This document shows, in pieces, positions 16,311 through 34,124 of a stretch of DNA of 41,519 bases; position 1 is the stretch's first letter, and each line of letters begins with the position of its first letter. The DNA comes from Campylobacterota bacterium (GTDB taxonomy: Bacteria; Campylobacterota; Campylobacteria; Campylobacterales; Sulfurimonadaceae). Location: positions 1-41,519 of the forward strand of contig JAUPLR010000067.1 in the NCBI GenBank assembly GCA_030836825.1. Direction: 5' to 3'. Below the pieces are notes generated by a model. The model was not told where the DNA came from. It searched no databases and saw only the letters and a list, made by a program, of their open reading frames with translations. Both the position numbers and the translations under genes were made by a program.

Positions 16311-17417
16311 TCAGAGATACGCTCTAATGTCTTCTATTAATCTATCAAATTTGACCTTATACTGGTCGAAAAGGCTAAAGTAGCTTTGCTCATGTGTATC
16401 ACCCAGAGCCAGTTTCATATTGGAAGCAACTTCACCAAGTGAGCTTGCTCCGATGTTTGCAGCTACACCGATAATGTCAAGAAGATGTGCATCAGCATCT
16501 TGAATATTAGAAGCGCGTAAAAGCTCTCCTAATCTATCCGGTGAATTTCCGTAGTCAGCCATAAACTCTGCTAAGATTTCACGGTAAAAATTCTCATCTC
16601 CGCCACACGTTTCAAGTCCTTTAGCGGTATCAAAACTTTTATTCTCAACAGCTTCTATGCCCTTATCTTTATGCATTTTTTCACCTGTATAAGCATAAAT
16701 TATTTTATATAAGGATTCCATTCTCAAAGGCTTTGCCAGCTGTTCAGACATACCGGCATCTTTCATTTTTTGGATGTCATCAGTTGCAATGTCTCCGCTC
16801 AGTGCTACTACTACAATATGGTCATATTTAGGATTTTCTCGAATCGTACGTGTCGCTTCAAATCCATCGATTCTTGGCATGTGTGCATCCATCAAAATCA
16901 TTAAAAAGTTTGCGTCGTTTTCCAATATGTCCAGCGCTTCTTGACCATCATTGGCCATGACCACTTCTATGCCACTATCGGCCAAAAGACCTAAAATAAC
17001 CTTTTGATTGATGTGATTATCTTCCGCAACCAATATTCGCTCACCGGCGAATTCAGCAAAATTTTGTTTTGTAATTTTTATATACTCAGGAACCGATCGC
17101 TTTTGGATAATATGGTCACTTTTTCGTCTATCCGTTAACTCTTTGAGTTGATCTTCGCGCACCGGTGCTATGACTCCAAAATCTCCTTCTTCTATTCCAT
17201 ATAAAGGAACTTCGGAAAGTGGCTCTATTTGTGGCTCTTGGATAACTACTTCGGGTATATCATTGTTTTGCGATTGATTACTATGAGGTTTTGGAGTTGA
17301 GCTTCTTTTTAAAATAAAGTACAAAACCAAGATGACTGCCGCTATGGCTACGATGACTATCATTGCTTGTTCAAATTCATTAAACATTTGATACTCTTTT
17401 TTCTTTAAATCATACAC
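16311..17417 (-). CDS. Membrane-anchored response regulator: N-terminal TM, REC domain, C-terminal Hpt-like domain
   Basis: TM IVIVAIAAVILVLYFILK; REC ILVAEDNHINQKV...ILMDAHMPRIDG...ALSGD...AKPL; C-terminal Hpt-like DAHLLDIIGVAANIGASSL. The start may be MFNEFEQ. Confidence 0.85.
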   Translation of the reverse strand: MYDLKKKEYQMFNEFEQAMIVIVAIAAVILVLYFILKRSSTPKPHSNQSQNNDIPEVVIQEPQIEPLSEVPLYGIEEGDFGVIAPVREDQLKELTDRRKSDHIIQKRSVPEYIKITKQNFAEFAGERILVAEDNHINQKVILGLLADSGIEVVMANDGQEALDILENDANFLMILMDAHMPRIDGFEATRTIRENPKYDHIVVVALSGDIATDDIQKMKDAGMSEQLAKPLRMESLYKIIYAYTGEKMHKDKGIEAVENKSFDTAKGLETCGGDENFYREILAEFMADYGNSPDRLGELLRASNIQDADAHLLDIIGVAANIGASSLGEVASNMKLALGDTHEQSYFSLFDQYKVKFDRLIEDIRAYL

Positions 17418-29504: not shown

Positions 29505-29693
29505 TTACGAATCTTTTTTAAGAGTACGAAGCTCGGAAGCAGCGATTCTGATTTTTTTCGTGGTTCCGTCTTCAAGCGTAATACGAACAGTGCGAAGGTT
29601 TGGTAAAAAACGACGCTTTGTTCTGTTTTTAGCGTGAGAAACGTTGTTCCCGCTCATTGGGCCTTTACCGCTAATAGCACATCTTCTTGCCAT
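29505..29693 (-). CDS. rpmB: 50S ribosomal protein L28
   Basis: [34 protein letters not shown]. Confidence 0.97.
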
Positions 29694-29860: not shown

Positions 29861-30658
29861 GTGATTACAGCAGAAGAAATAGCCCTTTATATAGAAAAAA
29901 TCCCTCCGGCCCCTGCTGTTGTGCAAGAAGCGCTCAATCATGCCCGTGCAGGTGATTTAACAAAAGCATCAAAAAGCGCATCGGAAGACCCCGCTTTGAG
30001 GCTGTATCTCAAAACACTTATCAATCGTCCTATCTATGGATTTCGCAATGAAGTCTCCGATGTTGCGCAGATTTTTGGGATACTGGGACTGGGCGCATCA
30101 CAGCAAACCCTCTATAACTATCTGCTGAGTTTGTTAACTCCGAAAAAATGGGAACTCTTTTCCCTCACCAATCATCAGTTTTATGACCTGCAAGCCTCCA
30201 TCAGTAAACATTGGGAAGCAATATTGGTTCATCTTAAGATCAATGACAAAGAGATCCAAAGTGCCATTTCCCTTATCCCTGCAAGCATTATTGTATGTGA
30301 AGCACTCTTTGCAAAACGTAAAACCGAAGTAGCTCAATTACGCTGCGTAAAAGCTCTTGATTTCAACACCATACTTTTTCGACTCAGCGGCAGTGATCTT
30401 TTTGATCTGTCTGGGGAAATAGCGCGCAAATGGGAAATGCCTGAGCGCATTTCAAAGCTCATCAAATCCGCTTCAGGAATGGACCAAACGCTTACGGGAC
30501 AAGAACGTGTTCTTGCGCAGTGGATGCATTTACTCCTCTTTTATGAACTAAGCCAAAGCGCCTTTGTCAGTGCGGGACTCAATGAATTCATAGATTTTAA
30601 AATCGAGTTTGTCCAAGACATCTACGAATCTTTTGCACAGGTGGTGCAAAACACATGA
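29861..30658 (+). CDS. HDOD-domain protein
   Basis: ITAEEIALYIEKIPPAPAVVQEAL... HDOD-like helical sequence without HD catalytic residues; GTG 29861 preferred, longer ORF starts at 29687. Confidence 0.65.
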   Translation: MITAEEIALYIEKIPPAPAVVQEALNHARAGDLTKASKSASEDPALRLYLKTLINRPIYGFRNEVSDVAQIFGILGLGASQQTLYNYLLSLLTPKKWELFSLTNHQFYDLQASISKHWEAILVHLKINDKEIQSAISLIPASIIVCEALFAKRKTEVAQLRCVKALDFNTILFRLSGSDLFDLSGEIARKWEMPERISKLIKSASGMDQTLTGQERVLAQWMHLLLFYELSQSAFVSAGLNEFIDFKIEFVQDIYESFAQVVQNT

Positions 30659-32049
30659 GAGCGGTAGTAAAAGGACGTATCGGAATTTTTTATCTCCAAG
30701 GATTCTTGGATGGCAATAATGCGCCGAGTTTTTTAACCATAGAGGATGTCAAAGCGACTGAGGATCTTAATGTTGACATGCTTCTTGTTTCTTTGAAAAA
30801 AGTGATCTTTTTCAATAAAAATGGCCTTGAAGTATTTGTTAAGCTGTTATCCACCATTCGCAATCAAAAACACATAATCGTCGGATTTTGTGATTACGAT
30901 CACGCAAAATTCAATGCTATCAATACTTTTTTCAAAGACGAACTCAATTTTTCCTTATTTAAAACCCAAGAGATTGCCGAGCTTTTCACTTCCAGTAACA
31001 AGGGTGAATCCAGAACGGTTTTGCTGTACAATGAAGACTCGTCACAACGTTCGGCAATGGCAATCGAGCTCTTCGATTATGGTCACAACCCGATCATGGC
31101 ACAAAGCAAACATGAATTTGAAGAGAAAAAGAAAGCTTCAGAGCTCTACTACGCTATTATTGAAGATACTAACCTTGGTGTTTATGGACAAAAGGTAGCT
31201 ACCCGTGTTACCGGAAATGCTATTATTTATACCATATCCCATTTTTTAGATGCCGAAATAAATGATACCTTCAATCTCTCTTATCATCTAAACTCTTTGA
31301 ATGTTGGCTTCCGCCTCTTTATCTTTGATGCCTATAAAGTCATCTCGATGAATGTGCACGCACTCAATTTTTTCACCAAACTGGCCTCTGCCGCTGCTGA
31401 ATACAATGCCTCGATCTGTTTTGTTGGGCTCTCGTTTGAGAAAACACCCGAGAGTTTTAAGAACGATCTCGAAGATGCCGGATTGATGTTTTTTGACAAC
31501 ATGGATGATATTCTCAAGAACAAAGAGCTGTTAGAAGAACTCGGTGCTGGCGGCGGAGTTACCGCTAAAAAAAGCCGTTCCCTCAACAAAGCGCTTGTTA
31601 ACGAGCTACCCCTTTTTATAGAAGCTACCGTGAGCACGATCGCCATGATGACCAATGCTGCGGCTACTAAAAACTCCGTTAATATCCAAACATTGACGAT
31701 TCCCAATACACAGGACCAATACGCCAGTTCTATTGGATTTTATGGAGACATTGACGGCTTAATCATCCTTGTATTTCCTAAAAGTATTGCCAAAAAAGCA
31801 TGCGAATTGCTGATTGGGGACCCAGACGCAAGCGAAGAAGAGGTCCTCGATTCTTTGGCCGAATTTGTAAATATCATCGGAGGACGCGCTAAGGTGCTCT
31901 TGTCAAGCAACAAGCACGTTTTGGACATAACCCTCCCCAGAACCTATTCCGACATTAAGACTCTGATGGAAATAGCGCACGATAAAAAAGGGGTACAAGT
32001 TGACCTGACTTTTGAGGGTGAACGCTTTATCTTTTTCCTAACACGGTGA
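30655..32049 (+). CDS. Multidomain signalling protein: STAS-like / degenerate REC-like / STAS-like / CheX-like
   Basis: C-terminal DSLAEFVNIIGGRAKVLL matches the CheX/CheC E-x2-N-x3-G phosphatase motif; STAS-like VDMLLVSLKKVIFFNKNGLEVFVKLL; ATGA overlap with HDOD CDS. Confidence 0.65.
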   Translation: MRAVVKGRIGIFYLQGFLDGNNAPSFLTIEDVKATEDLNVDMLLVSLKKVIFFNKNGLEVFVKLLSTIRNQKHIIVGFCDYDHAKFNAINTFFKDELNFSLFKTQEIAELFTSSNKGESRTVLLYNEDSSQRSAMAIELFDYGHNPIMAQSKHEFEEKKKASELYYAIIEDTNLGVYGQKVATRVTGNAIIYTISHFLDAEINDTFNLSYHLNSLNVGFRLFIFDAYKVISMNVHALNFFTKLASAAAEYNASICFVGLSFEKTPESFKNDLEDAGLMFFDNMDDILKNKELLEELGAGGGVTAKKSRSLNKALVNELPLFIEATVSTIAMMTNAAATKNSVNIQTLTIPNTQDQYASSIGFYGDIDGLIILVFPKSIAKKACELLIGDPDASEEEVLDSLAEFVNIIGGRAKVLLSSNKHVLDITLPRTYSDIKTLMEIAHDKKGVQVDLTFEGERFIFFLTR

Positions 32050-32101: not shown

Positions 32102-32743
32102 ATGCTCATTGCCCCAAGCGTTCTCTCCGCCGATTTTGGAAATTTAGCACGTGATGTTCGTGCCATTTGCGATGCTGGATGCGATCTGGTCCATGTCGAT
32201 ATCATGGATGGCCACTTTGTTCCCAACATGACGCTTGGGCCTGTTGTTGTCAGTGCCATCGCGAAAGCCGCCACCAAGCCTCTGGATATTCATCTTATGG
32301 TAGAAAATAACACTTTTTTTGTCGATCTTTTCGCTCCCCTAAAACCTGAATTTATTACTTTTCACATCGAAGAAGAAAAAAATCCGCACAGGCTCGTTCA
32401 ATACATACGCTCATTGGGTATTAAACCGGGGATCGTTCTTAATCCGCACACTCCTGCGGAAGCGGCTGAGTATTTGCTGAGTGATGTGGATATGGTACTC
32501 GTTATGAGCGTCAATCCAGGTTTCGGCGGTCAAAAATTCATCCCTACCGTTGTGGAAAAAATTAAACGTTTAAAAACGCTTCGTGATCGGATCAATCCAA
32601 CGTGTCTTATAGAAATAGACGGAGGAGTAGGAAGCAGCAATATCCATCTCTTGAAAGATGCCGGTGTTGACGTCTGTGTCGCCGGAAGCTATGTATTTGG
32701 TGCCGATGATTATAAAACAGCTATTGATGCTCTTCGCGTATGA
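32102..32743 (+). CDS. rpe: Ribulose-phosphate 3-epimerase
   Basis: MLIAPSVLSADFGNL, HVDIMDGHFVPNMTLGP, VMSVNPGFGGQKFI. Confidence 0.98.
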   Translation: MLIAPSVLSADFGNLARDVRAICDAGCDLVHVDIMDGHFVPNMTLGPVVVSAIAKAATKPLDIHLMVENNTFFVDLFAPLKPEFITFHIEEEKNPHRLVQYIRSLGIKPGIVLNPHTPAEAAEYLLSDVDMVLVMSVNPGFGGQKFIPTVVEKIKRLKTLRDRINPTCLIEIDGGVGSSNIHLLKDAGVDVCVAGSYVFGADDYKTAIDALRV

Positions 32744-33327
32744 GAGTCAAAATATGCGGCATAACGTCTCTAAAAGATGCGCAATGTGCCATTGATGCGG
32801 GAGCGGATGCTTTAGGCTTTGTTTTTTATCCGCAGTCCCCTCGATACATTACCCCTGATGATGCGCATAGCCTTATCCAAGCCCTTCCCCCTTTTATCGA
32901 GAAAGTAGCCCTTTTTGTAAATGAAACGCCCCAAACCATCCGCAGCGTCTGCCTTTCTACGGGCTGTACCCTAGCACAAATCCATTTTGACGTGACGGAC
33001 TCTTTTTTCCAAACCCTAGAATTTCCATCGCTTCGGGTTATTCGTGCGCAATGCAAAGAAGACATCCTCCAATACTGCGATCACTACCGCCTCGTTGATG
33101 CCTATTGTGAAGGGTACGGCGGTAGCGGGAAACGCCTCAATATTGAATGGTTTGAGGGCGTTGATTGTTCAAAAATCATCCTTGCAGGGGGATTAGATTC
33201 TCATAATGTTGCCTCACTCAAATCCTATGGCTTCTATGGGGTGGATGTCAGCAGTGGCGTTGAAGCCTCAAAAGGGGTCAAAGATCCATTCCTTGTGCGT
33301 TCTTTTATTAGGGAGGCAAAATCGTGA
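32740..33327 (+). CDS. trpF: Phosphoribosylanthranilate isomerase
   Basis: MRVKICGITSLKDAQCAIDAGADALGFVFYPQSPRYI; ILAGGLDSHNV; GVDVSSGVEASKGVKD. Confidence 0.97.
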   Translation: MRVKICGITSLKDAQCAIDAGADALGFVFYPQSPRYITPDDAHSLIQALPPFIEKVALFVNETPQTIRSVCLSTGCTLAQIHFDVTDSFFQTLEFPSLRVIRAQCKEDILQYCDHYRLVDAYCEGYGGSGKRLNIEWFEGVDCSKIILAGGLDSHNVASLKSYGFYGVDVSSGVEASKGVKDPFLVRSFIREAKS

Positions 33328-34124
33328 AACCTCTCGATCCAAAAATTATTATACGTTTGAGCAAAAAAGGGATCCCCAGAGAAGAATTCGAATCATTACT
33401 GCCAGAACCTAGCTCTTTGAGCCTTGAACTCTTAAGCGCTCAAGGACTGAGTTTGATTCTAAAAAATAATCTGTATTACCTTAGCAGCACCTACACAAAC
33501 GTTGAAGATACGCTCTTTTGTATTGTCGACGTTGAAACCAATGGTTCAAAGCCCTCTCGTGATCAGATCATCGAAGTTGGTGCTGTCAAACTGCGAAACG
33601 GCGTTATCATTGATACCTTTGAGCGCTTAGTATACACGACCGATATTTCAAAACAAATACAAGAGATTACCGGAATCAGCGTCCAACAAACTCTAAAGGC
33701 ACCTGCATTAGCCAAAGTGATGCATGAATTTAAGCTGTTTCTAGGAGATGCCGTTTTTGTAGGGCACGATGCAAAGTTTGATTATAATTTTGTATCCGCC
33801 ATGATGGAGCGTGTCGGATTGGAAGCATTGTTCAACCGATCATTGTGCACCATTGATCTGGCAGAGCGTACCATAGAGAGTGAGCGATATGGACTGGCCT
33901 ATCTAAACGAGCAACTGGAGCTCTACCGTGAAGCAACGCATCATCGCGCCCTCTCAGATGCCATGACAACGACCAAGCTTCTCAAGCGAACCTTGCCATT
34001 GATTCCTAAAACGATTCAGACATGCGAAGAATTAATCGGTTTTTCAAAAGAAGCGAAACGGCTTAAACGACCCAAGCCAACTCCGAAGAAAATCGACGAA
34101 AAAGAGCAAACCTACTCGCAGTAG
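33324..34124 (+). CDS. DnaQ-like 3'-5' exonuclease (DNA polymerase III epsilon-type)
   Basis: [51 protein letters not shown] (DEDDh). Confidence 0.92.

Follow-up and report, generated by a model that had tools for sequence, protein, structure and literature searches.

What does a cell do with a gene pair that joins an HDOD-like protein to a protein made of STAS-like, receiver-like and CheX-like parts, and that lies among housekeeping genes? The question is raised by a locus in the window, the whole stretch of 41,519 nucleotides that was analysed, which is contig 62 of a 174-contig genome of about 91% completeness whose named close relatives are Sulfuricurvum MAGs. With a probability of roughly 0.58, I propose that the pair is an undescribed auxiliary component of the F3-class pathway of Campylobacterota, F3 being the class to which the chemosensory systems of Campylobacter, Helicobacter and their free-living relatives belong, and that it would act as a CheY~P phosphatase that is docked or gated by the HDOD protein. 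The locus and its neighbours are as follows.

29505-29693, minus strand: rpmB (ribosomal protein L28), the conserved divergent upstream neighbour (neighbourhood comparison)
29861-30658, plus strand: HDOD-domain protein of 265 aa with a GTG start (Pfam HDOD, AlphaFold2 with Foldseek, start alignment with 39 relatives)
30655-32049, plus strand: STAS1 - half-receiver - STAS2 - CheX protein of 464 aa (ORF, Pfam, model, Foldseek)
32102-34124, plus strand: rpe, trpF and dnaQ, conserved downstream same-strand neighbours (neighbourhood comparison)

Both open reading frames are present where the first-pass annotation had placed them, and they overlap by the ATGA at 30655-30658, an overlap found in exactly this form in 57 of 80 named relatives. 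The pair was also expected to be conserved, and indeed the order rpmB (minus strand), HDOD, STAS-CheX, rpe, trpF, dnaQ is kept in the named relatives from Sulfuricurvum and Sulfurimonas whose contigs reach far enough, and the same gene order, with diverged sequence, recurs in other families. This conservation rules out chance neighbours or an annotation artefact. There are 223 relatives in GTDB species genomes, and the STAS-CheX gene is single copy in the window genome. At the aligned position of the HDOD start codon, 39 relatives carry 21 GTG, 15 TTG and 3 ATG; the GTG start at 29861 is supported because 36 of the 39 have GTG or TTG there, and such a preference across species hints at weak translation initiation. 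Judging from the spacing, rpe-trpF-dnaQ are probably cotranscribed with the pair, and a promoter and terminator scan gave a result near chance. Elsewhere in the window, 16311-17417 on the minus strand encodes a protein of 368 aa in which a hydrophobic segment at the N-terminus is combined with a complete receiver and a C-terminal region resembling HPt.

For the first gene, the HDOD assignment is borne out by both sequence profile and all-helical fold. The Pfam HDOD match lies above the gathering score (E 5e-6, 26.6 bits vs 22.9), and the AlphaFold2 model (pLDDT 92, pTM 0.89) matches in Foldseek the solved HDOD proteins 3hc1, 3m1t, Cj0248 (1vqr) and SadB (9qzk).

In the second gene, Pfam, Foldseek and the model agree on the CheX-like C-terminus that had been read from the letters.

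31576-32046, plus strand: CheX domain, aa 308-464 (Pfam, Foldseek, hmmsearch to PDB CheX chains)
31849-31938, plus strand: CheX catalytic signature D399-x3-E403-x2-N406-x21-P428 (site counts; alignment with the E/N/P of T. maritima CheX)

The Pfam CheX match spans aa 357-450 (E 8.7e-14, above cut-off), and the C-terminus has the fold of CheX/CheC/FliY structures, with Foldseek E-values down to 6e-10. The motif at 31861 is intact, as the annotation held, but its description as E-x2-N-x3-G needs correcting; it is E-x2-N with D upstream and, after 21 residues, P. The E/N mechanism is established for CheX-type phosphatases, where the two residues act on CheY, with CheX N99 orienting water and the acidic residue contacting the receiver Lys (PMC3035606). 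Among 148 aligned homologues, D399, E403, N406 and P428 stand unchanged in all 110 copies from Sulfurimonadaceae, Sulfuricurvum included, and likewise in the three copies that are unlinked (f16-like) and the three that are short. A different pattern is seen in group f11, here called Campylobacter-like, a name guessed from gene content among other features: in most of the copies sampled E and/or N, and thereby the signature, are gone, while the fold is kept and the HDOD neighbour is mostly kept. Homologues from f11 with decayed E/N are L137-L150 and L045.

These copies could mean that the protein serves the F3 system by binding or as a scaffold, its CheX fold holding CheY~P or a part of the motor or array, with catalysis not essential. 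The Campylobacter-like lineages, which keep the gene pair despite decayed catalytic residues, point this way, and such a binding role has precedents in inactive FliY and in the middle domain of FliM; in Campylobacter and Helicobacter, FliY is without phosphatase residues and still in the C ring (PMC6946799). However, throughout the Sulfurimonadaceae, as in the copies that are short or unlinked, all four residues are retained, which is hard to explain without catalysis there, and I consider this reading unlikely. Nevertheless, as the Campylobacter-like lineages lose the residues yet keep the pair, a phosphatase-only reading is incomplete, and a non-catalytic role exists as well.

The front end of the protein consists of three parts.

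30664-30981, plus strand: STAS1, aa 4-109, with N54-K-N-G57 at the phospho-Ser site (Pfam STAS, model, site counts)
31015-31167, plus strand: half-receiver, aa 121-171, beta1-alpha1-beta2-alpha2-beta3 only (model, hhalign to REC 91.8%, site counts)
31201-31515, plus strand: STAS2, aa 183-287, with N233-V-H-A236 at the phospho-Ser site (model, hhalign to STAS1 95.7%, site counts)

The AlphaFold2 model of the 464-aa protein gives the domain order STAS1, a beta-alpha-beta-alpha-beta unit, STAS2 and CheX, with the STAS and CheX folds in the order that had been claimed; its pTM is 0.48, and the packing between domains is not reliable. Both predicted STAS-like segments hold up. The first has a Pfam STAS match at aa 3-72 (E 2e-5, above cut-off), the second is missed by Pfam in the window copy and pairs with STAS1 by hhalign, and the STAS parts match SpoIIAA/RsbV structures in Foldseek. 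Of the proposed pseudo-receiver between them, the relation to REC and the degeneracy stand, and half-receiver is the better name: the middle unit is also truncated to the first half, its match covering just positions 2-54 of the 111 in a REC profile built from the window genome's own receivers, against which STAS1 or STAS2 as control scored <1% (single-pair hhalign E-values being relative measures). In the window copy, N126/E127 occupy the place of the DD pair and D171 the phospho-Asp position, and across the 148 homologues both the phospho-Asp position and the acidic pair vary. At the STAS phospho-Ser position the same homologues have Asn in STAS1 (NKNG/NRNG) and His in STAS2 (NVHA/NIHA).

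Neither STAS domain thus carries the phosphorylatable Ser/Thr of STAS antagonists at the start of helix 2, which rules out a partner switch of the sigma-factor style. The second half of a receiver supplies the Thr and Lys needed for the phospho-switch, and the middle unit is without that half. Since it does not have the complete (beta-alpha)5 fold of a receiver, in which phospho-Asp, acidic pair and Lys come together, the half-receiver cannot serve as a working phospho-acceptor, and a working receiver switch is ruled out.

The window genome holds other CheX-type genes, namely cheX-fliN (L132), which carries the E-x2-N motif, a CheA-type fragment with CheX (L133) and FliY (L134). As cheX-fliN is a separate gene, the locus is not the known F3 cheX (cheX-fliNO), and it lies between rpmB and rpe, not directly upstream of fliN/fliO. 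At L133 (C52, 91-1538), a 330-aa CheA-type ATPase fragment at the contig edge has a CheX-like C-terminus and is followed by cheY; it reads as a fusion of kinase and CheX that has a receiver of its own. The F3 cheA with its receiver is on contig 111, and CheZ gave a sub-threshold Pfam match only, which is uninformative, as epsilon CheZ is remote.

Across the phylum, 298 Campylobacterota genomes of at least 90% completeness were surveyed, with E <= 1e-50 defining a strong STAS-CheX match and a C-terminal receiver defining F3-type CheA. FliG was found in 265, any CheA in 261, F3-type CheA in 233 and STAS-CheX in 95 of the 298, and 94 of the 95 STAS-CheX carriers have F3 CheA. Put differently, STAS-CheX occurs in 94/233 genomes with F3 CheA vs 1/65 without (p 2.5e-11, uncorrected for relatedness), and among flagellated genomes in 94/233 vs 1/32 (likewise uncorrected). 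In the window's own family, f1, the counts are 22/22 with F3 CheA vs 0/5 without. No correction for relatedness enters the P values; it is the nested losses that carry the argument. Ten labels lack both F3 CheA and STAS-CheX (g27, G067, G079, G295, G003, g34, G135, f6, f9 and f18), and because several of these fall within groups whose other members have both, the losses were probably repeated. In G067 and G079, flagellin and FliG are present and both CheA and the pair are missing; their genus-mate G003 is without CheA, flagellin and pair; f9 and f18 have flagella and other CheAs, and neither F3 CheA nor STAS-CheX. A simple link to flagella instead of chemotaxis is less likely, as G067, G079, f9 and f18 have flagellar genes without F3 CheA and no STAS-CheX. 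The sole STAS-CheX carrier without F3 CheA, G220, has N406 changed to Tyr and no HDOD partner. The locus had been described as lying away from any che/fla cluster, which is true locally, but its distribution over genomes ties it to F3 CheA.

The same distribution bears on a second alternative, in which the protein would dephosphorylate some receiver that is not CheY and so feed cyclic di-GMP or transcription control. There are 37 receiver matches in the window genome from which such a substrate could come, receivers besides CheY are conceivable targets of CheX-like enzymes, and the che genes are distant from the locus. I nonetheless regard this as quite unlikely, as most REC proteins are independent of CheA, whereas STAS-CheX follows the presence of F3 CheA and disappears together with it, even from genomes that retain flagella.

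The coupling of the two genes was followed in the same genomes with a dedicated HDOD defined by E <= 1e-16, the cut between dedicated and general HDOD matches. Such an HDOD is present in 67/298 genomes, all 67 of which have STAS-CheX; in 61 the two are adjacent, and in 6 (family f16) they are unlinked yet both kept. Over 82 loci, the pairwise distances of HDOD and STAS-CheX correlate at 0.92, and the partial correlation is 0.71 once rpe, trpF and dnaQ are accounted for, other tested pairs reaching at most 0.35. That the two are neighbours by descent only and do no joint work, their order being frozen as with cheY-prmA, is therefore very improbable, even though rpe-trpF-dnaQ are kept too and passages of PMC9321776 describe functionally unrelated neighbours kept in Campylobacterota, because a dedicated HDOD is always accompanied by STAS-CheX, is retained alongside it when unlinked and co-varies with it beyond the neighbouring genes.

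STAS-CheX is found without the dedicated HDOD in 28 of the 95 genomes. Full-length copies without an HDOD neighbour exist, in one family beside aroE (L039, L040), and forms of 350-358 aa are without STAS2 (L046-L048); aroE (shikimate dehydrogenase) is beside or near STAS-CheX in L039, L040 and L046, that is, in both full-length and short forms. One MAG (L004/L052) has HDOD, the first 60 aa of STAS-CheX, an HDOD fragment and a full STAS-CheX, a partial tandem duplication that may be an assembly effect. At G267:C1:1387565-1388880, STAS-CheX is broken by stops and frameshifts and an unlinked HDOD gene is kept.

For the proposed F3 phosphatase I infer the following course. The CheX domain would bind phosphorylated CheY of the F3 pathway and insert E403 and N406 into its active site, which would speed up hydrolysis of the aspartyl-phosphate and weaken the switching signal to the flagellar motor. 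STAS1, half-receiver and STAS2 would form a non-phosphorylatable docking platform for the co-translated HDOD protein, which may set the activity or position of the phosphatase on an intracellular cue, for which SadB by analogy suggests cyclic di-GMP as one candidate. Given the E-x2-N motif of cheX-fliN in the same genome, the activity could be redundant, and STAS-CheX is missing from many F3-CheA genomes. More tentatively, HDOD, a widespread domain, might be a direct regulator of a response-regulator phosphatase, acting through STAS-half-REC-STAS and setting the lifetime of CheY~P on an intracellular cue, with the Campylobacter-like complex as a non-catalytic CheY~P-binding device; if so, the state of the cell would tune chemotaxis downstream of the receptors.

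As F3 parts are scattered, missing ones are hard to find, and the pair behaves like an overlooked one, missing wherever F3 CheA is lost with the single exception of G220. Several HDOD proteins affect motility, and the pair gives such domains one defined partner, for which CheY~P hydrolysis is predicted as a simple assay. In some Campylobacter-like lineages E/N have decayed naturally, so that nature already offers catalytic and non-catalytic forms to compare.

The domains are known, and their combination is one for which I found no description. A literature search gave no paper naming both HDOD and CheX, or HDOD and Sulfurimonas, and the pair is absent from the main-text passages of PMC9321776, whose supplementary tables may list the gene. 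According to such passages, F3 cheY, cheZ and cheX are dispersed beside housekeeping genes in Campylobacterota, a pattern that the pair with its rpe-trpF-dnaQ neighbours fits. The F3-class cheX (cheX-fliNO) described there resembles the locus as a dispersed single gene with the CheX motif that tracks F3, but it is small, single-domain and adjoins fliN, whereas the locus protein is multidomain and lies elsewhere. CheX of Thermotoga maritima and Borrelia burgdorferi has the same fold and the same D/S-x3-E-x2-N...P signature and is a stand-alone protein of about 155 aa, while here the domain is fused behind STAS-half-REC-STAS and paired with HDOD. The CheA-CheC/CheX fusions of Leptospirae likewise place a CheX-type domain inside a larger chemotaxis protein, but these are kinase fusions without STAS and without HDOD (PMC10542144). 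With the anti-sigma antagonists SpoIIAA/RsbV the locus protein shares the STAS fold, their phosphorylated Ser being replaced by Asn or His in its two STAS domains. Finally, the HDOD fold is common to the locus protein and the regulators Cj0248, GsmR and SadB, mutants of which are reported to have altered motility (PMC11004494, PMC6543031); SadB has an extra YbaK-like domain, and for none of the three is a phosphatase partner described, whereas the HDOD protein of this locus is paired with STAS-CheX.
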